A stretch of 64,000 bases of DNA from Halorhabdus sp. BNX81 (GTDB lineage: Archaea > Halobacteriota > Halobacteria > Halobacteriales > Haloarculaceae), in NCBI RefSeq assembly GCF_029229925.1, contig NZ_CP107254.1, positions 1,488,001-1,552,000 of the forward strand, in the 5' to 3' direction. Every line of letters begins with the position of its first letter. Position 1 is the stretch's first letter. Positions 20,278-39,523 of the stretch are shown here, in pieces. Made by a program: the position numbers and the translations under genes. The notes beneath the pieces are model-generated. The model saw only the letters and a program-made list of their open reading frames with translations, had not been told where the DNA came from and made no database searches.

Positions 20278-21729
20278 ATGACGGCGACCGCGCTTGCGAT
20301 ACTGCTGGGCGCAGGCTTCGGTCTCATTGTCGGGACCATCGTCGCCGGCACAACGGGAAGCATCGGGTTCGCCAGTCGATACGACAGGGGACATCAGCTG
20401 TCGACCGGTGCCGTCGTCGTTGTGGCGGGTTTGCTCGTCGGCGTCCTGTCTCTCCTGATCGTGACCGTCTCGCCGGGGATCGAATTCACTGCGACCGAAC
20501 AGTACCACCTGTCATTCCCAACAGTTCGGGCGATGGTGGGTTTCGGTGTCGAACACGCGCCGTTTGTAGGCGTATTCGGGGTCGTGTCGACGCTGCTTGG
20601 AGTGTACGGGTACAGCCAGGGTGACCGGATCGCCGGCGATATGCCGGCAACCGAGACGTCCCCGGGATACAATCGACGAGCACTAGCTCCGAAGACAGTG
20701 GCCTCGGCTGACGCGACCGGAAACATCTCTCTCGACGTGACCCGCGATAACCGGCATGTCGAGAACGGCTACTCACTTTCGCGGGAACAGTGGCATGCCA
20801 TCGAATCCCGGGCCTGGACAGTCCCGGTCGATCTGCCGATCGTGGAACTCGAATCGAGACTTGCGGCTCGTATTCAAACGACGGTCGGCGTCGATGTCTC
20901 CGCCGTTTCGATAGACCAGCAGGGACGAGCAACGGTTACCGCCGAACACTCCTCGAAATCGGTCGGGTCACAGTTGTCCGACGGGCAACGGGCAGTCACG
21001 GTGCGGACAGTCGTCCCCGCCGAACTGCAAGCCGGCGATCAGGTTACCCTTGTCAGTGACGCAGACGCTGTCGACGGTGTCGTTCTCGGGGTCGGTTCCG
21101 CTGGGAATCTGATCGATCCACCAGCGACCCAGCAACCGGAGACGTACCACGCCGGACCAGGGTCGCCGTCCGCTGGCCGGGCTGATCGAAGCGAAACCAC
21201 CATCGAACAATCGGATCCCGCGACCGGCGAGGACCGTCGGGTTTCGGTTGCCGTCGATGTCGATGACGTCACCACGATCCTGACGTCGACGGGCGTCGAT
21301 CTGTACGTGAACTCGTGTGATTCGAACGGGGCCTGCGGCGCATTTAGACAGTTGCAGCGCGCCGGACTGATTGTCCAGCACGTGACGGTCGACAAGCGGA
21401 CCCGGGAACAGCTCGACGACCACGCCGGCGATATCGAGATCCTTGCATATCGTCGCCCGGCGGAATCGGGGGACCCAACTGCCTGGCAGTTCCGAACCGG
21501 CGAGCAGTCCGCACGCGTTGACGAATCCGACAGACCGATAGCTGAAAGTGAAGCCGACGGTGTGTCAGATCACTCCGAGAACCCACAACCGTCAGCAGCC
21601 GATACGACTGCGGGCGATATCGAGCCATCTATTCCGCCAGGAACGGAGGTATTCGTGATCGGCAACGAACGTGTCCTGGCTCGACTCGGTGAAGGCAAAC
21701 CGGAGCTAGCCACGGGGGAAGCCCAATGA
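20278..21729 (+). CDS. Membrane protein with TrkA-C-like domain, first of a pair
   Basis: 483 residues from ATG at 20278. Three membrane spans near the start (ALAILLGAGFGLIVGTIV; STGAVVVVAGLLVGVLSLLIV; APFVGVFGVVSTLLGVYG) are followed by soluble regions with alternating beta/alpha pattern. The C-terminal part (about 345-480) carries a Cys pair (SCDSNGAC) and ends with EVFVIGNERVLARLGEG, close to the end of an RCK_C/TrkA-C domain. TrkA-C domains gate potassium transport by binding nucleotides, but no K+ pore is encoded. It overlaps the next gene by four bases (ATGA). Role unknown. Confidence 0.65.
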   Translation: MTATALAILLGAGFGLIVGTIVAGTTGSIGFASRYDRGHQLSTGAVVVVAGLLVGVLSLLIVTVSPGIEFTATEQYHLSFPTVRAMVGFGVEHAPFVGVFGVVSTLLGVYGYSQGDRIAGDMPATETSPGYNRRALAPKTVASADATGNISLDVTRDNRHVENGYSLSREQWHAIESRAWTVPVDLPIVELESRLAARIQTTVGVDVSAVSIDQQGRATVTAEHSSKSVGSQLSDGQRAVTVRTVVPAELQAGDQVTLVSDADAVDGVVLGVGSAGNLIDPPATQQPETYHAGPGSPSAGRADRSETTIEQSDPATGEDRRVSVAVDVDDVTTILTSTGVDLYVNSCDSNGACGAFRQLQRAGLIVQHVTVDKRTREQLDDHAGDIEILAYRRPAESGDPTAWQFRTGEQSARVDESDRPIAESEADGVSDHSENPQPSAADTTAGDIEPSIPPGTEVFVIGNERVLARLGEGKPELATGEAQ

Positions 21730-22928
21730 CGGTTGCGTTGCTTCCTGTGATCGGCGGACTGCCGGGAGAACCCGCGCAACTCTCGGCGCTCGTCTCGCCG
21801 ACCGTGCGCTCCGCAGCGATCAGTCTCGTCGGCTTCGCCGTTCTCGCAGTCCTCACAGCCGGCATCGGAGCGGTCGCCTATCGACGTCTCACATCGCGAC
21901 CGATACCTCTCGGCACGGCCATCCTCCTTGGCTGGGTGTCCGTGGCAACCTGGCTTACGGCCCGAATTGCGGCCGGGAGCGCCATCGTGTCCGATCTATC
22001 GATCGTTCTCGATGCAACCGGCTATTTTCTGCTCGCGGCGTTCGGACTGAGTGGCGCTGTGTCGGTCGGCGGCCGACGACTTGGGGATGCCATCGCCGGT
22101 GAGGTCGCCGAGAGTCCACCCGACGAGCAGTCCGAACAGACGGCAAAGAGACGGCGCTCGGCGAAACAGGCTACAAGCGTTGAGCTGCCTGACAGGATCC
22201 GAACTCGATCCGGAAGCGAGCCCGTCGAAGAGGATCTGAAACGCGAACTCGAAGGGGATACGTGGCTGTTTCCGAGTGGACTCCCACCCGCAGCACTCGA
22301 ATCGCGCTGCCGAGAGCGACTTGAACGGGACTACGGGATCGACCGTGTTGGGATTGAACTATCCGAAGACGGTGATATACGACAGCTCGCTATCGGGTAT
22401 GAGCCGTCCGGGTTGAGTGTCACCCTCCCTCCCCGAACAGTCGGTGTCGCGATCCGAAAGGCAATGGTTCCGGACGCGGCACCTGGCGATCCGATCGAGC
22501 TATGGACGGCCGACGAGGAACGCGTCGAATTCGCCGGCAGCGCCACACTCCATTCGACACCTACCGATACCGCGACGCTCGTCCTTCCGGAACAGGCAGC
22601 CCGGACACTCGGCGATATCGATGGGTACAGCCTCACGACGAAACCGGCAGTCCCAGACGACGTCACTGATTTCCTGTCCGTCCTGCGGGCCTGTGACCAC
22701 TCGATTACGATGCTATCGATCAGTTCGGGAGAACCACTGGAGGGCGAATTCGTCGGCTGGGTGGCTGTCGACGTGCTCGCGATTGTCAGGGACAGTACGG
22801 TACTCCCATTCCCTGACGAAACCGAAACACTTCGAAGCGGCGACGACATCTACGTCTTCGGCGGCCCGGCCGCGTTCGAATCGCTTGGGACGTTCGAGCG
22901 TGAGCGCCGATCGGAACTTCGGGATTGA
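21726..22928 (+). CDS. Membrane protein with TrkA-C-like domain, second of a pair
   Basis: 400 residues, overlapping the preceding gene by four bases. Three hydrophobic segments at about 24-50, 58-76 and 84-104 are followed by a basic linker (KRRRSAKQ) and soluble domains. The C-terminus, EFVGWVAVDVLAIVRDSTVLPFPDETETLRSGDDIYVFGGP split over 345-385, matches the TrkA-C beta-sandwich with its D-x-L-x-GD-x-I-V-G ending. The pair has the same layout and probably arose by duplication. Without a transport pore they may sense ions or act as anchors for the MinD-type gene that follows 41 bp later; this is inference. Confidence 0.65.
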   Translation: MTVALLPVIGGLPGEPAQLSALVSPTVRSAAISLVGFAVLAVLTAGIGAVAYRRLTSRPIPLGTAILLGWVSVATWLTARIAAGSAIVSDLSIVLDATGYFLLAAFGLSGAVSVGGRRLGDAIAGEVAESPPDEQSEQTAKRRRSAKQATSVELPDRIRTRSGSEPVEEDLKRELEGDTWLFPSGLPPAALESRCRERLERDYGIDRVGIELSEDGDIRQLAIGYEPSGLSVTLPPRTVGVAIRKAMVPDAAPGDPIELWTADEERVEFAGSATLHSTPTDTATLVLPEQAARTLGDIDGYSLTTKPAVPDDVTDFLSVLRACDHSITMLSISSGEPLEGEFVGWVAVDVLAIVRDSTVLPFPDETETLRSGDDIYVFGGPAAFESLGTFERERRSELRD

Positions 22929-22969: not shown

Positions 22970-24250
22970 ATGCTCGCAGTCGCAGGGACAAAGGGAGGCT
23001 GTGGAAAGACCACAACAGCCATCGGCATCGCCGAGGGGTTCGCTCGGGCGGACATCCCGGCAGTCGCCATCGACGCGGATCGACAGCTGCCGAACATCCA
23101 CGTCATCGGTGGGGTCGACCGGGAGCCGACGTTCGCTTCCCTCGCTGACGGCGACGGACTCTCAACGGTGTCACCGAGTCCCCGGGAACCGACGGCCGGC
23201 CTGCTTCCGGCACCGTTACCCACCGAGGACGTCGCGCTCGAATCCGTGCTCGATCGCCTCGCAAACAGCTCGGTTCGGACCGTCGTCGATTGCCCATCGG
23301 GCGCTGGCCCGGACGCCGTCGATCCCCTCTCAGCCGCCGACCGTGTCATCGTCGTCACGACGGACACGACCCGAAGTATCGAAGGGGCAAAAGCGACGAT
23401 CGACATGGCCGACCGTCTCGACGTCCCCGTCGCCGGGATCGTCCTCAATCAGTGTGATCGTGTGTCGCCGTCGCTTGTCGAAGCCATTGACCAGCCGATT
23501 CTGGCAGCGATCCCTGACAGGGAATCACCACTCGAACATCCGGAGACGTGCGAGGCCTACGATCGGATCGCATCGGAACTCAGCAACCGATGGGCTGAAA
23601 CGAACGGGTCACCGGCAGCAGCCGATCGGCTCACGACCGGTATCGAACCACTCGATGCAGCACTCGGCGGTGGCATTCCACACGGCAACGTCGTCGCCGT
23701 ACTCGCGGAGCCACCGAGCCAATCCGAGCAGCTTCTCTACGCGCTGACGGCCGCCCGCGGCACGTTATATCTCACCGTCGAACGCTCACGGTCGCATATC
23801 GAAGAATCGATCGACACAGCCCCTGTCACCGCCGGGAATCCGTCGATTCGACAGCTCGATGCCCCTGCTGTCTTGTCCGAGGCGAACGACTACGTCGAGA
23901 GCCTGCCGGATGGTGCCAATCTCGTCATCGACTCGATGGATGCCTTCGAGCGAACCGATCGCAAGCAGTTTCAGGCGTTTATGAACGGACTCGCCGAGCA
24001 CGTGAGACGGACTGAGTCGGTCGCGTTCTTGCATTGCCTCGACAGCGAAAACCCGCCCGATCTCAGACCGCTGACGATCCACGTTGCAGATCTGGTCCTC
24101 GAGTTCGAGGCGTCGATGGACGTCACCGGAATCTCCCAGCAGGTGACCGTGCCCAAGGTCCGTGGCGAGCCACTCCCTGCGGAAACGATCGATCTTGATC
24201 TCGTCGCCGAATCAGTCCTCCCAACTCGAAGTCCCTCTCACGGGGACTGA
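22970..24250 (+). CDS. MinD-KaiC fusion protein with a degenerate second P-loop
   Basis: 426 residues. Residues 1-210 are a MinD/ParA ATPase: deviant Walker A KGGCGKTTT at 8-16, DADRQLPN at 35-42, VDCPSGAG at 107-114, and VIVVTTDT. Residues about 220-420 look like KaiC/RadA: TTGIEPLDAALGGGIPHGN at 222-240, but the expected GxxGxGKT is AEPPSQSE (246-253), with no Lys or Gly triplet. The second Walker B, NLVIDSMDAF (317-326), is kept. So the first half can bind ATP, while the second probably cannot. MinD proteins sit on the membrane and position other machines, and a secretion-like island follows. Confidence 0.8.
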   Translation: MLAVAGTKGGCGKTTTAIGIAEGFARADIPAVAIDADRQLPNIHVIGGVDREPTFASLADGDGLSTVSPSPREPTAGLLPAPLPTEDVALESVLDRLANSSVRTVVDCPSGAGPDAVDPLSAADRVIVVTTDTTRSIEGAKATIDMADRLDVPVAGIVLNQCDRVSPSLVEAIDQPILAAIPDRESPLEHPETCEAYDRIASELSNRWAETNGSPAAADRLTTGIEPLDAALGGGIPHGNVVAVLAEPPSQSEQLLYALTAARGTLYLTVERSRSHIEESIDTAPVTAGNPSIRQLDAPAVLSEANDYVESLPDGANLVIDSMDAFERTDRKQFQAFMNGLAEHVRRTESVAFLHCLDSENPPDLRPLTIHVADLVLEFEASMDVTGISQQVTVPKVRGEPLPAETIDLDLVAESVLPTRSPSHGD

Positions 24251-24279: not shown

Positions 24280-24975
24280 TCACTGAACCCACCGGCCGTC
24301 GATCCGATGGCGACACTCCGCTAGACTCGCTGCGAGTTCCTCAAATCGTTCGACTGGGAAACTCTCGGGAAACGCATCACGAACGGGCACCCAATCTTCC
24401 TGAGCCCTGTGAATAGTCGTCCGCTGGGGGACGTAAGTCACAGGAGCGTTGAATCGTTTCCGGACCTCGGTCCGGCGTCGTTCGTACGTGGATTCGTCGG
24501 TCTGATTGAGAACGACGGCAACCACTGGGGTCTCGAGCTTGACGGCGAGGTCGCGCGTCCGCGCTGCGTTGGCCAGTGCCGCCTCGCTCGGGTTCGTTAC
24601 GAGCACCACAACGTCCGCACTCGCGATCTCACTGCCGACGTCTCGCGCCAGGCCGGCGGGGCAATCGATGACGACCGGACCAGACATCCGTTCGAGTCTT
24701 CCGACGACCGTCTCGAATGCCTGGAGATCAACTGCACGAGCCCCCTGAACAGTTCTCCCACAAGGAAGCAACTCCACGTTCCAGAACTCCTCGACCGCAT
24801 CCATTGGATCGGCACGGCCAGCAAGCACGTCGTGAAGATCCGGACCGGTGCCACGAGGCAGGTCTGCAGTCGAGAGATCCCCATCGACCACGACGGCATC
24901 CAGTTCCGCAGCCAGATTCAGTGCGACCGTCGACTTGCCGACGCCGCCCTTGCCACCAGCGACTGCAACGATCAT
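24280..24975 (-). CDS. MinD/ParA-type ATPase
   Basis: 231 residues from ATG at 24975. Deviant Walker A is KGGVGKST (9-16), followed by DGDLSTADLP, then VVIDCPAGLARDVGSEIASADVVVLVT split around 105-130. It matches the MinD family, although the C-terminal amphipathic membrane helix is not obvious. It overlaps the small gene upstream by four bases (ATGA) and is last in a minus-strand operon with the surface-protein genes, so a role in placing the apparatus is likely. It is separate from the MinD-KaiC fusion on the other strand; the two end 29 bp apart. Confidence 0.88.
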   Translation of the reverse strand: MIVAVAGGKGGVGKSTVALNLAAELDAVVVDGDLSTADLPRGTGPDLHDVLAGRADPMDAVEEFWNVELLPCGRTVQGARAVDLQAFETVVGRLERMSGPVVIDCPAGLARDVGSEIASADVVVLVTNPSEAALANAARTRDLAVKLETPVVAVVLNQTDESTYERRRTEVRKRFNAPVTYVPQRTTIHRAQEDWVPVRDAFPESFPVERFEELAASLAECRHRIDGRWVQ

Positions 24976-25340
24976 TGCCGATTTCGGACGATGTCCCTGG
25001 GCGGCCGCCACTCGTCAAGGTCACGAAGTACCGCCCCGGCGTCGTTTTCGAAGTCTGCTGGCGTTGCTCTGCGGATATCGACGACGGCTATCGGCGGGTC
25101 AGATGGTGTCGTCGGACTCGCAAAGCCAACTCCACGGGACTCTCCGGGCCGTAAAGCCGACTCCCAGCGGTCCCCATCCCATTGGGGCGCAGACACAGTC
25201 CCGTACTGGGGGTGCCAGGTTGGGCCCGCAAGTTGACTCGCAAGCCGGATTACCTGGGCTGTCCCGCGCGTGTTCGTGACTGTCGCCTGGACGAACGTAA
25301 CTCCCTGTTCAACCGTCGTGTCGGCGTTCAATTCGACCAT
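24972..25340 (-). CDS. Small beta-rich protein coupled to minD
   Basis: 122 residues from ATG at 25340 (an upstream in-frame start at 25403 is possible but overlaps the PGF-CTERM gene). The sequence has mostly beta pattern: VTFVQATVTNTRGTAQVIRL resembles a CARDB-like or immunoglobulin-like strand order, then short loops and an acidic C-terminal helix. No signal peptide, so it is cytosolic. No family was recognised with certainty. The stop overlaps the minD start, so the two proteins are made together, and it could be an adaptor of MinD. Confidence 0.6.
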   Translation of the reverse strand: MVELNADTTVEQGVTFVQATVTNTRGTAQVIRLASQLAGPTWHPQYGTVSAPQWDGDRWESALRPGESRGVGFASPTTPSDPPIAVVDIRRATPADFENDAGAVLRDLDEWRPPRDIVRNRQ

Positions 25341-25371: not shown

Positions 25372-27669
25372 TCATTGCTGTCTGGCGACCACCAGCCCCC
25401 CACCCAGGAGCGCCACCAGTGCGACGGTCACCCCGAAGCCAGGGCCGTTGGTTGTTGTCGTCCCGTCGCCGTCCGGTGGGCCGGCAGTAGTCGCTGCGCT
25501 GTTGGAGTCACTGTCGCCACCAGCGGAACCGGTGGCTGTGGTGGTGTGGCTACCGGCATCCGACTGTACGGTTACCGCCTCGGTCAGGGAATCGTCGCCG
25601 GCTGTGACACCGAATTCGAGCGTTCCGGCAGCGCCTGCGGTCACGTCAATATCGATTTCCTGAGTTTCGCCGGCTTCGAGACTCGTGTTTTCAACCGTCC
25701 GCTCGTCGCCAGCAACGTCGAGGCTGACCGCCGTCGACCCACCGATATCACCGGTATTCCGCACGGTGGCAGTCACCGTCATCGTCTCACCCGTATCGAC
25801 TGTTTCGGGCACGTCCAAACCAGCAACTTCGAACGTCGCTGGGGCGAGAATCGTCGTATTGGCCCGCCGCGTTGTCTCACCAAGCGACACCGCGTGTGTG
25901 ATGGTGCGACCGGTGGGCTTCGATGCGTTCACGTCAAAGGTCTGGGTCGTTTCACCCGGTTGGACGCGAAGTCGATCCGCAACGATCTGTCCGTCGCCAC
26001 GGAAAGTGACCGGAACCGAGACGGCAGTATCGGCGGTGTTCTCGAAGATCGCTTTCACGGCGTAGGTACCGCCGGGCGTGACGGTCTTCGGCGCGATGAC
26101 GTCCCGGAGCCTGACGCTGTCGTTGTCGACGACAGTCAGCTCACCAACATCGTGATCGCCGAGAGTGATATCGTATGAACCCGCTTGTCCAACGGACCAC
26201 GAGAACGTCGCTGTTGTCTCGTCGTGGCCGCCGACATGGACGGTATCCGAATGGACCGTCTCACCTTCGACGGTGGTCGAGATCGGCTCACTGCCGGGCA
26301 TCCCACCGTCGTTTTCGAGCGTGGCTGTGACAGCAGCGGTCGAGTTGGCGAGGATCGCCGACGTGTCGAGTGCCGCGTCGGTCATGGAGATGTCTGCAGG
26401 CGTGCGAACGTCGAGCGTCGCCGTGTCGGTTTTGCCGTTGACGGTCACTGAAATGTTGGTTTTGCCCGTCTCGGCCGGGGTAAGGGTTCCATCTTCGATG
26501 GTGACGGCGTTGCCGTCGAGATTGTAGTCGGCAGTTGTCGTGGCCGTCGTCGTCGAGCCATCGTAGAGATCCAACCGGACGGTGATATCGGTCGTGTCCT
26601 CGACGCTGACGAGCGAATTCGTCAGCGAGACGTCGACGTCTTTGACGTGCTGTTCGAGAACCGGATAGCTATCCGTCGTCATGAAGTCCGTCCCGACGAA
26701 CAGATACTCCATGTGCTCTTTCGCGGCTGAGCCAGTCATCTGCTCCGTCGTGAGGCCGGTAACGCTTCCCGGTCCCGCTCCGATTCCTTCTTCGATGCCG
26801 CTCTGTTCCGTGTCCCAATATGAAGATGAAATCTTGGGTGACCTAAATTCGTTAACTCGACCAACTAACCCGCCAATATCTTCACCACCTTGGACAGTAC
26901 CGGTTGCATATGATCTTTGTACATTTTTCGAACTTTTACCGAGCATCCCAATTAAACCGCCTGCCGAAATGTCAGTTGACTCTATATTACTATGAGAAAC
27001 GGATGAAGTGACGACACCACCAGTGCCAACATATCCAACCACTCCGCCAACATCTTCATCTCCCGTAACCCGGCCGTAAGTACTAGAACCGTGGAGGTTG
27101 GATTGATAAAGATCACCAACAATCCCACCAGTACCCCTTGATCCGCGTATCTCACCTGTTACAATTGACGAATTTATCTTTCCGTTTCTAAGGTGGCCAA
27201 CAAGACCTGCAGTTAGAATATCTCCTTGAATGTCTACATTCTTAAGATGGACTGAACGAATAGAACCACCGTTAATCACTCCAAACAGACCAATATGATT
27301 TTCCGACATCCGCATTATTGTTAATTCATTGATTATATGACCATTACCATTAAATGACCCTTGAAAGGGTTCGTTCAAATCTGATCCAATTGGATCAAAT
27401 CCTTTTCCACTGTTCCACTTTTCTGTCGAATTTGCCGCAATATCACTTCCAAGGACATAATTCGCTTCAAGATCCTCTTCCATGGCCTGTAATTCTTCCA
27501 CATTATTAATTATATAAGGGTTATCTTGGGTTCCCGATCCATTCATTTTTTCAAGGGGAGTTTCTCCCGCTCCAAAGACAATCCCAGAACTCACTATGCA
27601 TATCAAACAGATTCCGATGATAGCGATTGGAAGAGTTGTGGGAACCACTTTTGTGATTATATCGTTCAT
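25372..27669 (-). CDS. PGF-CTERM surface protein with GLUG repeats
   Basis: 765 residues. A signal peptide (about 1-33: TTLPIAIIGICLICIVSSGIVFG) is followed by a beta-helix region with GLUG-type units such as GLFGVINGG, GGIVGDLY, GGVVGYVG, GGLIGMLG, GGLVGRVN (about 130-290), then several CARDB-like beta-sandwich domains (about 350-690), a Thr/Ser/Gly-rich stalk, and a C-terminal GPGFG-VTVALVALLGGG-LVVARQQ segment (742-765), the PGF-CTERM sorting signal of archaeosortase A substrates. It would be cleaved and lipid-anchored on the cell surface. The N-terminal ~280 codons are AT-rich, the C-terminal part GC-rich, so the gene is a composition mosaic. Confidence 0.9.
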   Translation of the reverse strand: MNDIITKVVPTTLPIAIIGICLICIVSSGIVFGAGETPLEKMNGSGTQDNPYIINNVEELQAMEEDLEANYVLGSDIAANSTEKWNSGKGFDPIGSDLNEPFQGSFNGNGHIINELTIMRMSENHIGLFGVINGGSIRSVHLKNVDIQGDILTAGLVGHLRNGKINSSIVTGEIRGSRGTGGIVGDLYQSNLHGSSTYGRVTGDEDVGGVVGYVGTGGVVTSSVSHSNIESTDISAGGLIGMLGKSSKNVQRSYATGTVQGGEDIGGLVGRVNEFRSPKISSSYWDTEQSGIEEGIGAGPGSVTGLTTEQMTGSAAKEHMEYLFVGTDFMTTDSYPVLEQHVKDVDVSLTNSLVSVEDTTDITVRLDLYDGSTTTATTTADYNLDGNAVTIEDGTLTPAETGKTNISVTVNGKTDTATLDVRTPADISMTDAALDTSAILANSTAAVTATLENDGGMPGSEPISTTVEGETVHSDTVHVGGHDETTATFSWSVGQAGSYDITLGDHDVGELTVVDNDSVRLRDVIAPKTVTPGGTYAVKAIFENTADTAVSVPVTFRGDGQIVADRLRVQPGETTQTFDVNASKPTGRTITHAVSLGETTRRANTTILAPATFEVAGLDVPETVDTGETMTVTATVRNTGDIGGSTAVSLDVAGDERTVENTSLEAGETQEIDIDVTAGAAGTLEFGVTAGDDSLTEAVTVQSDAGSHTTTATGSAGGDSDSNSAATTAGPPDGDGTTTTNGPGFGVTVALVALLGGGLVVARQQ

Positions 27670-27895
27670 TATTAATGTTACAAAAATGTCCTTAGATAGT
27701 TATCGAATAACAACCAGTTTTTTCGTCTCTTCACTTGACTTATAATTTGAATCAGATGGAGGAACCACCTCGAATTCAAGATCTCCTCTAAATTGATCCG
27801 CCCGAAAGTCAACTTTTGGCTTTTTAGTACCAGTGTTATAAATTATGAATTTCTCCGAGCCACCCGTAGTATTAAGAACAGTTGGCTCATCCTTT
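26815..27895. other. AT-rich block crossing two genes
   Basis: Base composition drops sharply here. Hand counts: 27301-27360 is 20/60 G+C, 27181-27240 is 25/60, 27781-27840 is 23/60, against 39/60 for 25681-25740 in the same gene. The block covers the N-terminal part of the GLUG surface-protein gene, the 30-bp gap, and the C-terminal part of the pilin-like gene. Both edges are inside coding sequence. Recent exchange from a low-GC donor or relaxed selection on a surface region would explain it. Edges are by eye (within about 30 bases). Confidence 0.7.
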
Positions 27896-28173
27896 AGAGT
27901 CAGACTCCCGCTCCGAACCAGAACGCGTGCACCCTCAACTGGCTCACCCTCGCTCGTCACGACACTCACGTTCGTGGATTCTCCGACTTCTACAAGTTCG
28001 TCACTGAACTCCACGGTCACCGTTTCGTCCTGAAAGCTGTCGTCGAACTGTCCAAGGACGTTCATCATGAGCGAGAGGGCGGCGACGCCGACGACCAGTG
28101 CGATGACTAGTCGGATCGGTAGCCCCTCGATCGCCCGTTCGTCCCCCGCAAAATCGTCGTTTCTCCGTCGCAT
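27700..28173 (-). CDS. Pilin-like single-TM protein with a beta-sandwich ectodomain
   Basis: 157 residues from ATG at 28173. The N-terminus MRRRNDDFAGDERAIEG is followed by one long hydrophobic helix (LPIRLVIALVVGVAALSLMM), then an extracytoplasmic beta-rich domain with VEVGESTNVSVVTSEGEPVEGARVLVR, which looks like a carboxypeptidase-regulatory or invasin-type fold. The short charged leader and long helix recall archaeal type IV pilins, but the class III motif (Q-S/T-E after Gly) is absent. It is first in a minus operon with the GLUG surface gene and minD. The C-terminal half is AT-rich, unlike the N-terminal half. Confidence 0.7.
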   Translation of the reverse strand: MRRRNDDFAGDERAIEGLPIRLVIALVVGVAALSLMMNVLGQFDDSFQDETVTVEFSDELVEVGESTNVSVVTSEGEPVEGARVLVRSGSLTLKDEPTVLNTTGGSEKFIIYNTGTKKPKVDFRADQFRGDLEFEVVPPSDSNYKSSEETKKLVVIR

Positions 28174-28196
28174 ACCATTCGTGGCTGCGCTATCTC

Positions 28197-28251: not shown

Positions 28252-29355
28252 ATGACCTTCGTCATCGGCCGCGGGGAAGCGACCGACGAAGCACTGCCGA
28301 AAATGCGACTCGGTGCCTACAGAGCGCTCGACGGCAGTCACGGGGCCGACCTCTATCTCGATCTGGACGGCCCACACTCGATACTGGTCGTCGGCAAGCG
28401 CGGCTACGGGAAGTCATACACGCTTGGCGTCATCGCGGAAGGACTCTCGCGGACGGCTGGCGTCGCACCGACGGTTATCGATCCGATGGGGGTGTTCACC
28501 TCCCTGGCGAGCGATTCGAGCAGCGACTCGGGCCACGATTCGATTGCCGGGACAGTCATGGACGATCCAGCAGTCATCCCGGATTCGCTTGATCCTCGGT
28601 CGTGGTGTGCGCTTCTGGGTCTCGATCCCGAAAGCGGCGCAGGGAGTCTCGTCTGGCAGGCAGCACAGGAACGCTCGACGCTTGCGGGTATGGCTACCTC
28701 TGTCACCGAGCGCGATGCCCCCGCCCGGGACGAACGCGCTGCGGTCAATCACCTCCGACTCGCCGAATCCTGGGGCGTCTTCGACGAAAACGGCATCGAC
28801 GCCGAGATGCTTTCGAGCGGCGAGATCACCGTCCTCGACGTCTCCGGGCTCGATTCCGCGCCGATGAACGCCGTCTGTCGCGGCGTTGGCGAGGCGCTGT
28901 ACCGCGCCAGCGTGCGTGACACCATCGATCGCCTGCCGTGGCTGCTGGTCGACGAGGCACACACGTTCTTCGACGGCGTTGCCAGGAGTGCCCTCGAAAC
29001 GATACTCACGCGAGGGCGTGCACCCGGCGTGAGCCTCGTCTCGGCGACCCAGCGGCCGAGTGCTGTCCCGGACGTGGGGATCTCTCAGTCGGACGTACTC
29101 GTCTCGCATCGACTGACTGCGGGGGCCGATCTCGATGCGCTCACGCGGGCGCAGCCGACGTATCTGAACGGGTCGCTTTCCGATCGAATGCCGACCGAAC
29201 CCGGCAATGTCGTCATCATCGACGACGCGACAGAAACGGTCCACGCAGCCCAGGTTCGCGACCGCGAGACGCCACACGGCGGCGACAGCCCGTCTGTGAG
29301 CGAAATGGATGTATCGGACGGCAGTCCGTTCGGGAGCAAAACGGCCATGGATTAA
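28252..29355 (+). CDS. HerA/VirB4-like P-loop ATPase
   Basis: 367 residues. Walker A GKRGYGKS at 48-55, Walker B LLVDEAHTFFDG at 231-242, and SATQRPSAVP (264-273) as the sensor strand are those of DUF87/HerA-like motors. The N-terminal strand-rich part (MTFVIGRGEAT) fits the HAS barrel start but the whole barrel is short. HerA-like ATPases pump DNA or proteins as hexamers; those with TadA/TadC neighbours may be a secretion motor. No NurA nuclease is nearby, which argues against the DNA end-resection HerA. It is first of the plus-strand genes and separated by 173 bp from the next. Confidence 0.8.
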   Translation: MTFVIGRGEATDEALPKMRLGAYRALDGSHGADLYLDLDGPHSILVVGKRGYGKSYTLGVIAEGLSRTAGVAPTVIDPMGVFTSLASDSSSDSGHDSIAGTVMDDPAVIPDSLDPRSWCALLGLDPESGAGSLVWQAAQERSTLAGMATSVTERDAPARDERAAVNHLRLAESWGVFDENGIDAEMLSSGEITVLDVSGLDSAPMNAVCRGVGEALYRASVRDTIDRLPWLLVDEAHTFFDGVARSALETILTRGRAPGVSLVSATQRPSAVPDVGISQSDVLVSHRLTAGADLDALTRAQPTYLNGSLSDRMPTEPGNVVIIDDATETVHAAQVRDRETPHGGDSPSVSEMDVSDGSPFGSKTAMD

Positions 29356-29528: not shown

Positions 29529-30017
29529 ATGATCCGATACGTTCTCGCGATAATCCTGACCACTGCACTGCTGGGAATCGGCGTTGCAGGCGTCGATCAC
29601 GCCGCGACCGTCAGGAGCGAACAGCAGGTCGAAAATCAGATCGCCAAACTGGAAACGGCGGCGATGTCACTCCTCGAAACCGAAGAGCCGACACCACGGG
29701 GACAGAAGGGGCCACGACGCATCGTCGAACTCGATCTCCCGTCCGCTGGGTTCGCGTCCAAAACAGTCGACACGTTCCGAATCCGCCCGGATCCACGTGG
29801 CGTCTCAATCATCGAATACCGCGTTGACGAGCGAATGACACGAACGGAACACGTTGAGGCCACCATCAGGAACACGGACAGCTCGAACGGGATGACAGCG
29901 TTCGGTGACCACACAGGAACCGTGACAGTCGCCCTCTCACTTTCGCAAGCAAGCGACAGCCCTGACAACGATCGAGAGGTGTACATCGCCCTTCGTGTGG
30001 TGTCGAGAAATGAGTGA
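29529..30017 (+). CDS. Single-TM protein upstream of the secretion ATPase
   Basis: 162 residues. One N-terminal hydrophobic helix with a very short leader (IRYVLAIILTTALLGIGVAGVDHAA, about 2-26) is followed by a helical stretch SEQQVENQIAKLETAA and a beta-rich domain. This is the layout of pseudopilins and TadE-like proteins, but no prepilin peptidase motif is obvious. I recall a haloarchaeal family (DUF7311) at this place before the ATPase gene; that is unverified. It is likely anchored in the membrane with its domain outside. Confidence 0.6.
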   Translation: MIRYVLAIILTTALLGIGVAGVDHAATVRSEQQVENQIAKLETAAMSLLETEEPTPRGQKGPRRIVELDLPSAGFASKTVDTFRIRPDPRGVSIIEYRVDERMTRTEHVEATIRNTDSSNGMTAFGDHTGTVTVALSLSQASDSPDNDREVYIALRVVSRNE

Positions 30018-30071
30018 TTCCAGTGGGGAATCGGCACTGCACCGTCGCGATCTGGACGTGCGGTGCGTGCG

Positions 30072-30079
30072 TTTATAAT
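30072..30079 (+). promoter_or_regulatory. TATA box of the secretion ATPase operon
   Basis: TTTATAAT, centred about 26 nt before the ATG at 30102. This both marks a promoter and decides the start: an in-frame GTG at 30063 lies upstream of the TATA box and so is not used by this transcript. Confidence 0.65.
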
Positions 30080-30101
30080 GGAGTGGGCAGCCAGCATCGC
30101 C

Positions 30102-32036
30102 ATGCCGGATACGCCCGCTGGATCGTCGGCCACAGCCTTCGCCCGGAAGTTGGGGCTCGAAGCACTACTGGAGGTGATATCTGGAGACGGGGCAGACGCG
30201 TGTGACTGCCTGCCGGAACGAGACGGCGACCAGTTGCTCGTCGACGCAAGCGAGTGTGACGGCGATCTCGGGGCATCCCCGAACTGTCGGGAGACCGTCG
30301 TCGGGGAGCTCGTGGCCGATCCTGCCAAGGAGATCCTGGTCCGATCGAACGGCTTTCGCTATCGGTATCGACACGACGCAGCGGCGTTACTATCGGCTGC
30401 AGGTCGGTTTATCGGTCTGCTTGGCGACCGGGAGAACGCCGTCGAACAACGGGTCGTGACTGAGCCGCTCGCGGTCGCTAGCGAGCTCCGTGAGCGAGTC
30501 GATCCGATCGCGGACATCGGCGTCGAATCCGGACTGCTGGAAACGGCCGCCCGAATCGACGACGTACCCGACGTGCTGACGCCGGAACTCGGTCTCACGA
30601 TCGGCCATTACTTCGTCGACAAATCGATCGACGAGGATTCCCGACTCAAGGCGGTCGTCTCCCTCGATACCGGCAGTGAAGCGCGGATATATGCACGTTC
30701 TGACGGCGTCCCTCTGTACGCGGTCGATCCGGTCGACCTCAAGCTGTCTGCGTCAGAGAGAGGGATTCTGCTGGATGGATACGAGCGGATCGCAAACGGC
30801 GAGATAGCCGGTGAGAGAGCCGCCACTCACGCGATCGAAGAGGCAAGCGACGGCGCAGTCGATCCGATGGTGGCGTCGATCCTTCGGAAACACACACAGG
30901 GGTACGGGATTCTCGAAGACCTCTTCGCCGACCCGGAAATTACCGACGTATACGTCACCGCACCGGTATCGCGGAATCCGCTCAGAGTGGTTCGCGGTGG
31001 CGAATCGATGTCGACGAACGTCTTTTTGAGCATCGACGGTGCACACGCCATCGCATCACGGATCAGACGAACGAGTGGGCGGGCGTTCTCGCGTGCGACG
31101 CCAACGGTCGATGCGAAAGCGACACTCGACAGTGAAACGGACGTGCGGGTGGCCGGGGTGACCAAACCGGTCTCCGACGGGATCGCATTCGCGTTCAGAC
31201 AGCAGGCCGCGGACCAGTTCACCCTACCGAAACTCGTCCGGAACGGCACACTCTCTCCGGACGTCGCCGGGTTCCTGTCGGTCGCGGTCGAATCGAGTGC
31301 CGCAACACTCATCGCCGGCACGCGCGGGGCTGGAAAGACCACGCTCCTTGGCACATTGCTGTATGAACTCACAGCGGACACGCGAACTGTCGTGATCGAG
31401 GACACCCCCGAGTTGCCGATCGAATCGTTACAATCCGTCGGGCGGGACGTCCAGGCACTCCGAACGGGCACCGGCCACGGCCCGGAAGTGACGCCAGCCG
31501 AGGCCCTTCGGACGGCTCTGCGACTCGGAGATGGCGCGCTCGTGGTGGGCGAAATTCGCGGTGAGGAGGCCCAGGTGCTGTATGAAGCGATGCGGATCGG
31601 GGCAAACGCCAACGCCGTTCTCGGGACGATCCATGGCGACGGGGCGGACGACGTCTACGAGCGGGTCGTCTCGGATCTCGGTGTCGAACCCTCATCGTTC
31701 GCGGTTACCGATCTGGTAGTCACGACTCAGGCTACACCGACGCCACAGGGGCGTGATCGTCGCGTCTCCCGAATCGAGGAGGTGATATACGATGGCAGTG
31801 ACGTGTGGTTCGAGCCGCTCTACGAGAGCGACGGCACCGCCGCACGACCGACTGGTCGGATCGAGCAGGGCGAGAGTCGATTTATCCATCAGCTGTCCGG
31901 TCCCGAGGAGGCTTACGCCGACGTCAGGGAATCGATCGCCGAGCGCGCCGACCGGTTGGGACGGCTCGCAGGGGACGGCCGAACCAAACCGACAGAGGTC
32001 GCCGGCGCGTACGCCGACCGCATCCGAGCCGACTGA
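30102..32036 (+). CDS. TadA-type type II/IV secretion ATPase
   Basis: 644 residues. Walker A GTRGAGKT at 406-413, ASP-box region VIEDTPELPIESLQ near 431-444, Walker B GALVVGEIRGEEA at 478-490, and the HIS-box GTIHGDGADDVYERV near 508-522 are typical of archaeal GspE/TadA motors that power pilus assembly. The first 65 residues carry four Cys (34, 36, 52, 62), absent from the usual core and possibly a metal site. It would act as a hexamer below the membrane with the TadC-like protein encoded next; the stop overlaps the next start (TGATG). Confidence 0.94.
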   Translation: MPDTPAGSSATAFARKLGLEALLEVISGDGADACDCLPERDGDQLLVDASECDGDLGASPNCRETVVGELVADPAKEILVRSNGFRYRYRHDAAALLSAAGRFIGLLGDRENAVEQRVVTEPLAVASELRERVDPIADIGVESGLLETAARIDDVPDVLTPELGLTIGHYFVDKSIDEDSRLKAVVSLDTGSEARIYARSDGVPLYAVDPVDLKLSASERGILLDGYERIANGEIAGERAATHAIEEASDGAVDPMVASILRKHTQGYGILEDLFADPEITDVYVTAPVSRNPLRVVRGGESMSTNVFLSIDGAHAIASRIRRTSGRAFSRATPTVDAKATLDSETDVRVAGVTKPVSDGIAFAFRQQAADQFTLPKLVRNGTLSPDVAGFLSVAVESSAATLIAGTRGAGKTTLLGTLLYELTADTRTVVIEDTPELPIESLQSVGRDVQALRTGTGHGPEVTPAEALRTALRLGDGALVVGEIRGEEAQVLYEAMRIGANANAVLGTIHGDGADDVYERVVSDLGVEPSSFAVTDLVVTTQATPTPQGRDRRVSRIEEVIYDGSDVWFEPLYESDGTAARPTGRIEQGESRFIHQLSGPEEAYADVRESIAERADRLGRLAGDGRTKPTEVAGAYADRIRAD

Positions 32037-33742
32037 TGTCAGTTGGTTCCATGCTGCTGGTTGGTCTCGCACAGCTGTATCCCGTCGACGTCGATGTGAG
32101 TGCCGAACTCGCCGATTCGGTGACGTTTCTGGATTCGACCCATGCGCCGGAAACCTACGTCAGAGCCGGGTTCGGTGCCGGCATCGTCGGTGCAGTGGCT
32201 CCGGTTACCCTCGTACTCTGGCTGCCATGGTATGGCGCCACGTTCGCCTCGCTAATCTGCTCGCTGTCGGCGATACATGTGATACAGACGCTTCCACACG
32301 TACAGGCAGCGTTCAAACGGACCGAAGCGCTCGGCGACGCACCGAATCTGATCGGCCGGGCTGTCCTGCGAATGCAGATCGAACCCGCGACCGAATCCGC
32401 CGTCAGATTCGCTGCTGACACTGGATCGAGTTCGCTCGCGGCGAATCTGTCGACACATATCGACGCTGCCGTCGGCACACCACGAACTGGGCTGTTATCG
32501 TTCGCGGAAGAATGGGCCGACCGCTTTCCCGCGATGCGACGGTCGGCGTACTTGCTCGCAAGTGCACAGCAGGCCCCGGACGGTGAGCGAGCCCGGACGC
32601 TCGATCGGTCGCTCGCAGCCGTTCTGGATGGGACGCGTGATCGGATGGCCGAGTTCACGAACGCCATCCGTGGGCCGACGACGATGCTGTATGCCTTTGG
32701 CGTGATGGTGCCCCTCGCCCTTGTCGCGCTTGTCCCTGCCGTCGGGTTCGTCGGCTACGATATCAGCATCTGGTATCTCGTCGTGGGGTACGACATCGTC
32801 CTGCCGATTGGGCTTACCGGGGCGAGTCTCTGGCTGCTCAAACGACGCCCGATCGCGTTTCCGCCGCCGAAGGTAACGCGTTCCCATCCGGACGTCCCCT
32901 CTCGGTTGCTCCCGACGCTCCTGTGGGGGGCCATCGGCGTCATCGCCGGGTACACACTCGTGACGGTGCTGGGCGTGACACACCTGGCTCCAGTGACAGC
33001 TGCCGGACTCGGCATCGGAGCCATGTTGATCGCCTACGTCCGTCCGATCCTCCACGTCCGGACGCACGTTCGGGAGATCGAGTCAAATCTCACTGACGCA
33101 CTCTATCTCACGGGACGGCTTGTCGACGACGGCAAATCCGTCGAGACGGCGATCCAGCGGGCTGGCGATCAGGTCCCGGCAGCGACGGGCGAGCTGTTCG
33201 AGCGAGCAGCCGGGCTTCAACGCCGGCTGCACCTGAGCGTCCAAGAGGCCTTCCTCGGGGAGTACGGGGTCGTGAAAGACGTACCCAGCCCGCGGGTCCG
33301 GGCGACCGTCGAACTACTCGCCATCGCGGCCGAGCAGGGCGCACCGGCCGGCCGCGCGATCGTCTCGATGGCCGACCACCTCGACGAACTCAGGGACGTC
33401 GAGGCACAGACGCGGCGACAGCTGTCGACGATTACGGATACGATCGACAATACAGCCACCTTTTTTGGACCGATGGTCGCCGGAGCAACGGTCGGGCTCG
33501 CTGGCGGGCTTTCAAACGATGGAACGGCAGTGCTTGCGGAGGCAACGACGTTGCCGACCGACCAGCTCGGCCTCGTGATCGGCGGCTACGTCATCTCGCT
33601 GTCGTTCATTCTGGTACCGCTCTCGGTCGCCCTCGAAGACGGTCTCGACAGGCCACTCATCGGGTACCGGGTCGGTCGGTCACTCCTCGGGGCCGTTCCG
33701 ATCTACGTCATCACCGTGGTGGTCGTCGGCCTGACATTCTGA
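32036..33742 (+). CDS. TadC/GspF-type membrane platform protein
   Basis: 568 residues, overlapping the ATPase stop by one base. About nine hydrophobic segments are arranged as two T2SSF domains, each a pair or triple of spans after a helical cytoplasmic region (HVQAAFKRTEALGDAPNLIGRA near 85; RTHVREIESNLTDALYLTG near 345). Family role: a rotor or platform in the membrane on which the secretion ATPase acts to add pilin subunits. Length and domain doubling match archaeal TadC homologues. The coupling to the ATPase shows they work together. Confidence 0.88.
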   Translation: MSVGSMLLVGLAQLYPVDVDVSAELADSVTFLDSTHAPETYVRAGFGAGIVGAVAPVTLVLWLPWYGATFASLICSLSAIHVIQTLPHVQAAFKRTEALGDAPNLIGRAVLRMQIEPATESAVRFAADTGSSSLAANLSTHIDAAVGTPRTGLLSFAEEWADRFPAMRRSAYLLASAQQAPDGERARTLDRSLAAVLDGTRDRMAEFTNAIRGPTTMLYAFGVMVPLALVALVPAVGFVGYDISIWYLVVGYDIVLPIGLTGASLWLLKRRPIAFPPPKVTRSHPDVPSRLLPTLLWGAIGVIAGYTLVTVLGVTHLAPVTAAGLGIGAMLIAYVRPILHVRTHVREIESNLTDALYLTGRLVDDGKSVETAIQRAGDQVPAATGELFERAAGLQRRLHLSVQEAFLGEYGVVKDVPSPRVRATVELLAIAAEQGAPAGRAIVSMADHLDELRDVEAQTRRQLSTITDTIDNTATFFGPMVAGATVGLAGGLSNDGTAVLAEATTLPTDQLGLVIGGYVISLSFILVPLSVALEDGLDRPLIGYRVGRSLLGAVPIYVITVVVVGLTF

Positions 33743-33767: not shown

Positions 33768-33797
33768 CGATACCCGGGCCAGGGGGTGCAAGCGCAT

Positions 33798-34250
33798 ATG
33801 CAAGAGGACGAATCGCCGACCCGCGGACAGACCGAACCGCTGGCAGCACTCGCGGCAGTCGCACTCGTGTGTACGGCGATCACCCTGTATACCGGGTTGT
33901 ATGGCGAGCTCTTCGACGGGGTCGGTCAGGACCGATCACTCGGTGAGGTCACGACCGAGCGGGTCTGGGAGGCGATCGGGGAGAACGCCATCTACGATAG
34001 TGACGACGATCTACCGACCCTGATCGAAGCCTCAACAGTCCCGCAGGGTGCGACCGTGAAAGTCACGGTAACGCACGTCGGCGACGGGGGTCGGATCGAA
34101 ACAGCCGGGACAGCGACGTTCGACGCCCAGGGTGACGTGATCCGGACGGACCCGCCGACTGCCGCCGAGCGATACAACCGCTCAGTCCCGGTCCGAATCT
34201 CGCCGGGCGACGTCCAGCCGGGGACGCTCACGGTGGTGGTCTGGTCGTGA
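33798..34250 (+). CDS. Pilin-like protein with class III signal peptide
   Basis: 150 residues from ATG at 33798. The N-terminus TRGQTEPLAALAAVALVCTAI fits an archaeal class III signal: a short charged leader ending in Gly, then Q-T-E and a hydrophobic helix, cut by a prepilin peptidase between G and Q. The rest is a short beta-rich domain with VPQGATVKVTVTHVGD and a closing GTLTVVVWS strand. A minor or structural pilin of the island apparatus is likely. It overlaps the next gene by four bases (GTGA). No prepilin peptidase is encoded in the window. Confidence 0.75.
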   Translation: MQEDESPTRGQTEPLAALAAVALVCTAITLYTGLYGELFDGVGQDRSLGEVTTERVWEAIGENAIYDSDDDLPTLIEASTVPQGATVKVTVTHVGDGGRIETAGTATFDAQGDVIRTDPPTAAERYNRSVPVRISPGDVQPGTLTVVVWS

Positions 34251-35242
34251 TCGAGACGGACCGGGGGGTCAGTACTGTCGCGGACGTGACGCTCGCGATC
34301 CTGTTGGTCGTCGCTGCGATGGGCGTTCTCGTGACGGTCGTCGAACGCGAGGAAGCCGGCCACGACCCGATGACGGCGGAGTACACGGCCGAAACGATCG
34401 CGTCCGGGACGATGAACGTCACCTACGATGTCCGAGCGGCGCTCGAAGCGTACGACGGTCCCGGCGCGGCCCACGACGGGACGGACTACACCGACGAAGA
34501 GCTCCGCCGGCTCGCACATCGGCCAATGGTTGCTCACGCTGCAGCAGCCGCCGTGTTGAATCTCGAATTCGATCTCGGGAGGCTTCGAGGGGAAGCCGAT
34601 CATGGGGCCGTCGAACTGTCCACGGAAGCCGCCGCATACGAACGCGCTGTCGATGAAGCATTCCAGACGCGCCTCGTCGAATCGAGTTTCGACACGCAGG
34701 TGATCGCCGTCTGGGAGCCACTCGACGGTGGACCACTGCGCGGGACGGCCGAGTTTGGCCAGCGCCCACCTCCACAGGCCGACGTAAGTGCCTCGACCAT
34801 CACCGTCCCGGTCGACATGCCGTCGGTCCGGGAGCAGACAATCGATCGAGTCGACGATCCGGACGATTTCGACGTCGTCGCGACCGCCCTCGCCCGGTCG
34901 CTGGTCGAGGGATATCTGCCGGCCCGACGATCACAGCGAGCACTCGAAAGCAATGGCGTCGCCCGCGACCTGACGGCGTATCGATACCAGCGGTTTGCAC
35001 AGGTTCTGGAGACTGAGACGAACGACGTCGAATCGACCGTCGCCCCCGCGCTTTCGCGGCGGACTGCCAACGCGACGAAAGCAAACGCGGCGTTGACCCG
35101 GGCCTTGGCGGCCCAGCTCGAAGCCTACCTCGAACCCGATGATTCCACGCAGCCAGCCGCCGGGCCGCTCGGGAACGCAACAACCGCAGCCGAGCGCATC
35201 TCGACCGGGGCAGTGCGTGTGACGGTGAGAACATGGCAGTGA
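34247..35242 (+). CDS. Pilin-like single-TM protein, 331 residues
   Basis: GTG start overlapping the preceding stop. DRGVSTVADVTLAILLVVAAMG at residues 5-26 looks like a pilin N-terminus: a short charged leader, G-V-S-T before a hydrophobic helix. The rest is long for a pilin and mostly helical, with QxxxV-type patches and Asp/Glu-rich surface, ending ISTGAVRVTVRTWQ. It overlaps the next gene by ten bases. It is probably exported through the machine and anchored by its N-terminal helix. No specific family was recognised. Confidence 0.65.
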   Translation: MIETDRGVSTVADVTLAILLVVAAMGVLVTVVEREEAGHDPMTAEYTAETIASGTMNVTYDVRAALEAYDGPGAAHDGTDYTDEELRRLAHRPMVAHAAAAAVLNLEFDLGRLRGEADHGAVELSTEAAAYERAVDEAFQTRLVESSFDTQVIAVWEPLDGGPLRGTAEFGQRPPPQADVSASTITVPVDMPSVREQTIDRVDDPDDFDVVATALARSLVEGYLPARRSQRALESNGVARDLTAYRYQRFAQVLETETNDVESTVAPALSRRTANATKANAALTRALAAQLEAYLEPDDSTQPAAGPLGNATTAAERISTGAVRVTVRTWQ

Positions 35243-38200: not shown

Positions 38201-38850
38201 AGTCGTACGATGACGGACAATGGCGTCTGCTGGTCGAATCAGCGCTTCGCCCGGCGATCGAGAACGCCAGTGCGATCGAAGTTGACGTCGGGAAGAACAA
38301 AAACGTCGAAATCATCGAGGAGACGGTCAAGTCGAAGATCGGCGATGTCGCGTCGGAGGCTATCAAAAAACGGCTCGGCGATGTCGCGAAAAAGGCCAGC
38401 AAGCGGGTGAGCGACAAGATGGAGCAGTGGGCCGGATCGTGGTCGAAAAAGGCGAAGCGACCGGCCAGAATCGCAGCGGGGCTGCCGCTGCTGCCGGTTC
38501 CCACTCACTGGTACGCGACGATGAACGCCTGGGACGTCACCATCGCCGGCGAGTACGCACGCTTCGAAGTGACAGCGAACGTCGGGTCGCCAACGGAGAC
38601 GACCGCGACGACGTACGTCCGTGAGAACCGGACCGTTACCGCCGACATCGCCGGTGAGTCACGCAGACTCGGCAGCGTCGAACCGATCAACTTCACTGGC
38701 CGCTCCGTCCTTATCGTCATCACGCCGACCGGCGTCGGTGTCGGTGATACCGACGGTGAGAACCCCGAGTGCTCGCCGACGTATCCGGAAGTGGGCGTCG
38801 TCGATCCGGAGGCCATGTCGTGTGCTCGATTCGGCCTGGGTGGTGGATGA
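35233..38850 (+). CDS. Very large single-TM protein of the pilus-like island
   Basis: 1205 residues. A basic cytosolic start (KSPRARRQ) leads to one hydrophobic segment (about 31-52, VPFAIIGVLLLLTSVTFVG), after which the protein is outside the cell. The ectodomain is mainly long helices (QRVGDVRTNV, heptad-rich stretches near 390-470 and 640-760) with beta-rich parts, many Asn-x-Ser/Thr sequons (NGSD, NRSF, NASA) for N-glycosylation, and a Lys-rich helical region near 1035-1075. Hydrophobic LPLLPVP near the end precedes a beta domain. There is no known homologue I can name. It is the largest part of the island and most likely its exposed or structural component. Confidence 0.8.
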   Translation: MAVRDSTKSPRARRQATATPHRQLGNDTRGRVPFAIIGVLLLLTSVTFVGHTLTRSAVTPNVDASVAISQTEGVTQSAIRTGAQHGIETAASQPLTETSDTRWGAVLNASDPDTARESPDKLVDGKLASGTFRNYLRAMIYLEVRSSLERAGQRVGDVRTNVSVPNVGSPAALRAAIDRVSLGEPAEGVLEVTIENVTITARSEGRVIDDRETAISVSIATPIMQLHQRVERFERALDAGVTERGFSQRFNARIYALGWARGYAQNYQAPIAQVLANRHIEPAANDAVYRTQKDVFGAADPELQDANRLGWTCMALKDGGAMFDEYMGSNDVSYRNSTYTGDELVFDRSNGSDLSASVPTDGKGVADTLCSGAELALGDQVTGELPEAPGTRDLLGDAPGMNATDTIGVNQTAYVPLARMASADSTHSIDSAIDRIYTIDGRAHTRSTVVDPLDLSGSATCNNSAHADGTYTVTDRISVDGESIAEATPQEEYYEATSTVEARVTKYKKCHPEPENPMIATDTMELEVTTTFGEADANPAAEIDAIHSVPIGENKYNRGSRIAGLPSDFRNYAGGGKKVTASLLGADISPHAHASWVESAVPNRIESVADVSAGIDAELNVKKRVTLDHEKFLDAKLAAAIASDLAEMQRDAAAITHEYSRTDLLKRGEQSPFTRLIEKTETTLSEQYLDRTKPYDSVGQKAIYEARYAYLQALLAELETVEDGHESAVEGIDDKFEAVDLSLDKALTFLQAGIAAKEPDPVPLDSSNLTGTISYEVTGAPTYLVAANLTKRDVPAIEANTTFTPLAMRNEELFDSPLDDIVDGTVGAVLNAINLGGPDATVPIKTAGDILMAGNLAEAAGDNPITNRSFERSLDAFEDSVSESVKTVSETVAEDTVRQLYPTEAAACVVGENTRGRRVACSSQYSESLIETIRTAHAEIKRSTDTALDSYDTTAQRAVAIGNGTATERIVTTVTQTIDSDAYRHPAFTESYDDGQWRLLVESALRPAIENASAIEVDVGKNKNVEIIEETVKSKIGDVASEAIKKRLGDVAKKASKRVSDKMEQWAGSWSKKAKRPARIAAGLPLLPVPTHWYATMNAWDVTIAGEYARFEVTANVGSPTETTATTYVRENRTVTADIAGESRRLGSVEPINFTGRSVLIVITPTGVGVGDTDGENPECSPTYPEVGVVDPEAMSCARFGLGGG

Positions 38851-38856
38851 AATCAC

Positions 38857-39443: not shown

Positions 39444-39523
39444 AAATTAACACGACAGTTAGCGAGGAAGTGGGAGGGGAACCGCTCAGAGCCGACAGTG
39501 GGGGGACGAACAGCCGTGACTGA
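39440..39523 (+). CDS. Micro-ORF, 27 residues
   Basis: ATG at 39440 overlaps the stop of the previous micro-ORF by four bases; the stop at 39521-39523 lies within the start of the coiled-coil gene. The peptide begins MKINTTVSEEVGG and is hydrophilic. As with its neighbour, coupling rather than the peptide may be what matters. Confidence 0.3.
   Translation: MKINTTVSEEVGGEPLRADSGGTNSRD

Follow-up and report, generated by a model that had tools for sequence, protein, structure and literature searches.

In this study, we analysed two adjoining genes, here termed A and B, in a 64,000-nucleotide stretch of Halorhabdus sp. BNX81 (hereafter the window; positions 1488001–1552000 of a single-contig haloarchaeal genome of 2.83 Mb). 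Our analyses revealed that A and B encode paralogous membrane proteins, that B ends in an RCK_C fold, and that homologous pairs fall into two classes, one located beside a K+ channel gene (class K) and the other, which includes the pair of the window, located beside type IV pilus genes and MinD-type ATPases (class P). The reading that we favour, with moderate confidence, is that A and B form a membrane-anchored, cytoplasm-facing A:B hetero-oligomer, paralogous to the class-K pair, that serves the type IV pilus machine and the MinD ATPases. Several features proposed in a sequence-only reading of the pair were borne out: the two reading frames overlap (by ATGA), three N-terminal spans are predicted in the models of both proteins, the pair precedes a gene for a MinD-KaiC fusion (with a gap of 41 nt after B and all three genes on the + strand), and neither protein contains a TVGYG-like selectivity filter or has a pore or TrkA_N match in Pfam. 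The possibility that A and B represent one broken channel was ruled out, as both frames are open and conserved and have paralogues.

A structural model of B that was built from nine sequences (mean pLDDT 71.8, pTM 0.32) has three N-terminal helices (predicted at residues 25–55, 62–82 and 92–127), a middle domain and a terminal RCK_C domain. The top Foldseek matches of this model were KhtT (E 2.3e-4), BusR, TM1088B and the RCK_C domain of MthK, and VIA comparison of residues ~306–392 with the RCK_C rows shown gave Z values of 6.6–8.1. Most of the RCK_C chains matched belong to K+ transport, BusR being the exception. Pfam TrkA_C scored 18.2 bits on the B protein of the window, which is under the cut-off of 27, and matched all nine class-P B proteins scanned at E <= 1 (best 7.6e-7), with two of them (L042 and L061) exceeding the cut-off; a class-P B profile compared with the PDB by sequence found RCK chains (18 of 22 rows) only at E 0.08 or worse. 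The RCK_C end of B, and of A proteins outside class P, is shared with the RCK/TrkA gating subunits KtrA, KtrC, MthK, GsuK, KhtT and TM1088B, the last of which forms, going by the title of a PDB entry, a known two-subunit TrkA gating assembly with TM1088A. Unlike such subunits, A and B are without TrkA_N and carry three predicted spans followed by a middle domain, and class P has no adjoining channel gene.

Judging from their profiles, A and B are ancient duplicates, as had been proposed. BLAST of A against B gave a short match (E 4e-6), and comparison of a profile of 36 A proteins from outside class P (26 channel-linked and 10 unlinked) with a profile of nine class-P B proteins extended over 337 columns (probability 99.8, E 1.4e-29). 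The same set of non-P A proteins aligned with class-P A proteins over their full length (392 columns, probability 100, E 2.5e-85), and in this alignment the A protein of the window shows, within its TrkA_C part, a long insertion as well as a shortening. Pfam TrkA_C is present in all 36 non-P A proteins, whereas it matched none of eight class-P A proteins, a result which rules out a normal TrkA_C in A and suggests that the protein ends in a decayed, insert-split version of that domain. The proposal that both proteins have TrkA-C-like ends therefore holds for B, whose model matches solved RCK_C structures, and would apply to A only in this decayed form. Neither Pfam nor NCBIfam yielded a match to the A protein of the window, and no RCK_C was found when the class-P A profile was compared with the PDB by sequence. 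The non-P A profile matched the RCK_C of KtrA at E 4e-9, and VIA on the weak model of A (helices predicted at residues 2–37, 43–64 and 91–121) gave a KhtT row with a Z of 6.1 over residues 354–474.

Relatives of B were found in 43 of the 59 genomes searched, and the resulting 52 B loci were classed by their neighbours, with a channel being defined by matches at E <= 1e-30. A K+ channel lies 1.3–3.1 kb from B at 32 of these loci, all of class K. Eight loci are of class P, with a pilus ATPase within 10 kb in seven and MinD-KaiC within 1.7 kb in seven, and 12 have neither a channel nor a pilus/MinD link, some of these being on short contigs. Among the latter 12, G031 (L095) adjoins a short channel fragment and G055 (L071) has a weak channel-like match ~3 kb away; both were kept as having neither link. 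No K+ channel occurs within 5 kb of any of the eight class-P loci, nor was there a channel match at any of nine named class-P loci that were obtained from a collection scan with a five-row alignment. The absence of a linked transporter, which the sequence-only reading implied, holds for class P and fails for its sister class K. In a tree of 59 B proteins, which is unrooted and in which some rows are near-copies, a branch with 100/100 support separated all 16 class-P rows from the 43 rows of other classes. In this tree, the B proteins of G018 and G025, two genomes of the same family as that of the window, were very near to Halosimplex and Halorientalis B proteins.

The class-K partner channel has Ion_trans_2 and TrkA_N and no TrkA_C, ending ~30 residues past TrkA_N in the two proteins scanned. 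Channels of this composition adjoin class-K pairs at L045:9801-10991 and L039:10513-11691. Since the channel is without TrkA_C, class K would appear to be a split arrangement: as suggested by gene order, the pair may bring RCK_C domains in trans to the channel. Possibly, the pair of the window is likewise still a K+ channel regulator in trans, whose channel is encoded elsewhere and whose place in a pilus island reflects shared regulation only. This alternative, which we consider possible but unlikely, is consistent with the homology to the class-K pair, with the K+ transport membership of most matched RCK_C chains and with the window genome having one channel of class-K type (E <= 1e-30) ~52 kb away. 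However, that genome already has a class-K pair beside this channel, a recognisable TrkA_C has been lost from class-P A, and the link to pilus and MinD genes is kept across families.

The linkage of the class-P pair to the pilus cluster was evident at two scales. A T2SSE secretion ATPase >60% identical to that of the window occurs in eight of the 59 genomes, which are exactly the eight with a class-P pair. Within the order, the cognate secretion ATPase is present (E <= 1e-195) in 39 of the 293 genomes; B is located <=12 kb from it in 24 of the 39, MinD-KaiC <=15 kb from it in 25 (including G251), and both in 20. In three more genomes (G006, G300 and G257), B and MinD-KaiC are together and >150 kb from the ATPase. 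Conserved adjacency with MinD-KaiC, proposed earlier as a check, was supported. At the nine named loci, HerA-like and DUF7310 genes are beside the pair in seven, a second MinD is present in six and MinD-KaiC in six, although in L063 it is at the far edge of the stretch. It is highly unlikely that these genes are chance neighbours with no common function, as the 24 close linkages in 39 genomes compare with ~0.5 expected (an estimate from genome size that assumes two copies of B per 3.8 Mb) and cross several families. Chance would nevertheless fit the variable gene order and the 15 of 39 genomes in which B is not near the ATPase, and the pilus block of G006:C1 (L088, L089) is split, with HerA-like and DUF7311 genes remaining with the pair and T2SSE, T2SSF and DUF7283–7286 located ~186 kb away. 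Two nearly equal islands in Haloarcula rara NZ_CP119785.1 (L059 and L067, at 24–46 kb and 3009–3031 kb of 3035 kb), one of which has a frame break in B, are perhaps an end-duplication of the assembly, in which case one island was counted twice.

Several observations weigh against our favoured reading. In five genomes, the pilus cluster is adjoined by MinD-KaiC, a second MinD and DUF7857, and the 19 kb read contained neither A nor B, indicating that the A-B pair is not essential to the MinD/DUF7857 pilus unit. B is beside the ATPase with MinD-KaiC not within 15 kb in G008, G287, G273 and G217, and seven of the 39 ATPase genomes have neither B nor MinD-KaiC close by. MinD-KaiC occurs in 72 of the 293 genomes, mostly without this ATPase, and is therefore often present without the A-B pair. 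In addition, the model of A is weak (pLDDT 60.9, with a pTM of 0.32 that equals that of B), the frequencies of acidic and basic residues are equal after span 3, which makes the topology soft, and a change in the direction from class K to class P is putative, the B tree being unrooted.

It could also be proposed that A-B acts in a general way to anchor MinD ATPases to the membrane, with these ATPases positioning cargo other than the pilus (archaellum, chemotaxis arrays or CetZ) and the pilus genes being incidental. In L111 and L112, MinD-KaiC, A, B, DUF7857 and a second MinD are together far from the pilus cluster, and Haloferax MinD2 affects shape, archaella and positioning according to passages of PMC11588486. 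We view this alternative as very unlikely, however, because in G008, G273 and G287, which belong to a single genus, the pair is ~4 kb from the pilus ATPase with no MinD-KaiC nearby. The earlier suggestion that the pair may anchor MinD, or may be a membrane sensor, has conserved linkage as its only support.

The MinD-type neighbours have conserved features of their own. A deviant Walker A, KGGCGK[ST], is present in all nine MinD-KaiC sequences, and KGGVGKS was found in all three second MinD sequences read. The KaiC-like half of MinD-KaiC lacks a Walker A of the form GK[ST], its site reading approximately AEPPSQSE with the lysine missing in all nine sequences, and it may be conserved without functioning as an ATPase. 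In passages of PMC4858521, FleN/MinD and KaiC-type ATPases are put forward as regulators of archaeal type IV pili, and the haloarchaeal type IV pilus systems described there share with the window a secretion ATPase, a TadC-like protein, pilin-like and coiled-coil proteins, and MinD and KaiC-like ATPases. From its coiled-coil component, the window cluster would appear to be of subclade 4F. The main text of that paper contains neither 'TrkA' nor 'potassium', and no TrkA_C protein is named in its passages on these systems and its section 12. Haloferax MinD2 (HVO_0595) and HVO_0596 are also a MinD and a small neighbour gene, comparable to the second MinD and DUF7857 of the window; no phenotype was reported for deletion of HVO_0596 in the passages of PMC11588486, and the DUF7857 family is present in Haloferax volcanii. 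Units of MinD and DUF7857 occur away from the pilus island in G007, G039, G050 and others (e.g., G050:C3:182302 beside a MinD match at C3:182823).

The middle domain of A and B, which like the pilus island was not part of the sequence-only reading, resembles the D2 domain of RcpC/CpaB of the bacterial Tad pilus, and RcpC and class P both occur with pilus genes. RcpC was the top VIA row for the model of B (Z 8.9, rmsd 1.6, 80 residues, over 230–309) and of A (Z 7.7, rmsd 2.9, 84 residues; next row 6.6), and was the best Foldseek match of A (probability 1.00, E 6e-3), although no match of A reached E <= 0.001. As Z values near 8 are common, this structural match is weak taken alone, and comparable barrels trail RcpC by no more than ~1.5 Z (Ighmbp2 at 7.5 for B; Ski7 at 6.6, V-ATPase and EF-Tu for A). 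The Pfam RcpC model was also searched over 12 + 31 genomes at E up to 1, and none of its 80 matches in the 43 genomes was above the family cut-off, which the Caulobacter control passed. Seventeen of the 80 fall inside A-B pairs, which make up ~0.1% of the DNA searched, and 14 of the 17 matches spanning >= 80 positions are in A or B, mostly A. The RcpC model often matches other long frames at positions 7–61, with 63 of the 80 matches spanning <80 positions, which weakens the RcpC reading; these narrow matches are perhaps generic beta barrels. Matches of the RcpC model, mostly narrow ones (7–61), also recur a few kb from the MinD and DUF7857 unit in several genomes. In the Pfam scan, RcpC matched 10 of the 36 non-P A proteins (best E 9.8e-4), making it their second commonest match after TrkA_C, and matched 0/8 class-P A and 0/9 class-P B proteins. 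One class-P B protein matches another barrel, SMUBP-2 1B (E 0.0039), and the sole wide class-P match to RcpC in the genome searches is the A protein of G005 (E 0.35). Membership of A and B in the RcpC/CpaB family was ruled out, as no match reached the cut-off and the topology differs (three predicted spans versus one).

These results bear on the alternative that A-B is a structural pilus platform, in which an RcpC-D2-like ring would lie under the pilus base with an RCK_C dimer as a clamp and no ligand. The D2 domain of RcpC forms a twelve-membered (C12) ring according to passages of PMC12307814, and this precedent, together with the top-ranking structural matches, the wide sub-cut-off matches concentrated in A and B and the RcpC matches of non-P A proteins, is compatible with a platform. 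We nonetheless consider it quite unlikely, given that the cut-off was never reached, that the class-P proteins themselves yielded either no RcpC match in the Pfam scan, another barrel, or the single match of G005, that similar barrels score almost as high, and that the RcpC-D2-like domain also occurs in class K, away from pili. In addition, RcpC has one span and is periplasmic in the same passages, unlike A-B with its three predicted spans, its probably cytoplasmic C-terminal part and its RCK_C domain.

With respect to topology, lysine plus arginine residues per row in loop 1 versus loop 2 number 2.2 versus 0.8 in B and 1.6 versus 0.1 in A, which mildly favours an orientation with loop 1 and the soluble part inside and the N-terminus outside. 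RCK_C domains form dimers and are able to bind nucleotides, and two of the top Foldseek matches of B, KhtT and BusR, have c-di-AMP-binding RCK_C domains and no pore; ligand binding by A or B is putative. The D and N of the site helix of the KtrA RCK_C align to E and A in the non-P A profile, and the helix lining the KtrA site differs in that profile, non-P A being what the comparison covered. BusR is a case of an RCK_C used outside a channel. With regard to c-di-AMP as a candidate ligand, passages of PMC6741144 report dacZ to be essential in Haloferax volcanii, but neither 'TrkA' nor 'RCK' is found in the main text of that paper.

In the reading that we favour, the A:B complex would have arisen and would act as follows. 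The class-K pair would supply RCK_C in trans to a K+ channel that possesses TrkA_N and is without TrkA_C, whereas in class P the channel link would be gone and the RCK_C would have decayed in A and been kept in B. The RCK_C of B would sense an ion or a nucleotide, or would merely dimerise, and the RcpC-D2-like domains would build the A:B oligomer as a membrane ring or an array of dimers. That complex would recruit and hold, or switch, MinD-KaiC and the second MinD with DUF7857 at the pilus, and the MinD-type ATPases would place or time the pilus.

The genes of the island are listed in the table below. Judged by its gene content, with a secretion ATPase, a TadC-like platform and pilin-like genes together, the locus is of the type IV pilus type. 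The large secreted protein encoded between the DUF7857 and pilin-like genes is a candidate adhesin of the pilus, and the relatives L043 and L048 have two copies each. Upstream of A, a gene that we take from its sequence alone to encode valyl-tRNA synthetase ends at a distance of 238 nt.

Table. Genes of the A-B pair and adjoining pilus island, in positions of the window.
Positions	Strand	Gene product	Features
20278..21729	+	A (P0001), 483 aa	Three predicted spans; RcpC-D2-like middle (~227-348); probable decayed TrkA_C split by an acidic insert (~393-450)
21726..22928	+	B (P0002), 400 aa	Three predicted spans (25-127); RcpC-D2-like middle (230-309); RCK_C/TrkA_C (~313-391)
22970..24250	+	MinD-KaiC fusion (P0003)	MinD-type P-loop KGGCGKT; KaiC-like DUF7125 half without Walker A lysine
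24280..24975	-	Second MinD-type ATPase (P0004)	KGGVGKS; start codon inferred
24972..25340	-	DUF7857 protein	Overlaps second MinD gene; start codon inferred
25372..27669	-	Large secreted adhesin-like protein	CARDB; M26-N-like stretch
27700..28176	-	Pilin-like protein	DUF7382 match slightly under cut-off; DERAIEGLPIRLVIALVVG close to start
28252..29355	+	HerA-like P-loop ATPase	DUF87
29529..30017	+	DUF7311 protein	Pilus cluster
30063..32036	+	Type II/IV secretion ATPase	T2SSE; E 1e-20
32027..33742	+	T2SSF/TadC-like membrane platform protein	Pfam score slightly under cut-off
33786..39372	+	DUF7285, DUF7284, DUF7286 and DUF7283 proteins	Pilus cluster
39498..40043	+	Coiled-coil DUF7310 protein	Pilus cluster

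The fold at the end of B is already known, and what we have not met in those parts of the literature examined is the combination of three spans with RcpC-D2-like and RCK_C domains, the division into channel and pilus classes, and the MinD island. Among titles and abstract beginnings of the open-licence literature, there was no paper dealing in haloarchaea with a membrane pair of TrkA_C type together with MinD or pili, although one paper, PMC4236453, contains the phrase 'TrkA-C domain'. A more far-reaching proposal, to which we assign a low probability, is that a gating module of K+ channels, split off as a membrane-anchored ring of RCK_C and RcpC-D2-like domains, was taken into use at the base of a type IV pilus in archaea, coupling ion or nucleotide state to MinD-type positioning ATPases. 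If this is true, the ring would correspond in archaea to the Tad alignment ring, but would face the cytoplasm. More generally, the pair suggests a tie between K+ channel gating and pilus control, subjects that are usually treated apart. A-B also represents a testable pair for determining which cues direct archaeal MinD-type ATPases in space and time, and RCK_C domains may be provided to many haloarchaeal K+ channels by separate membrane proteins.

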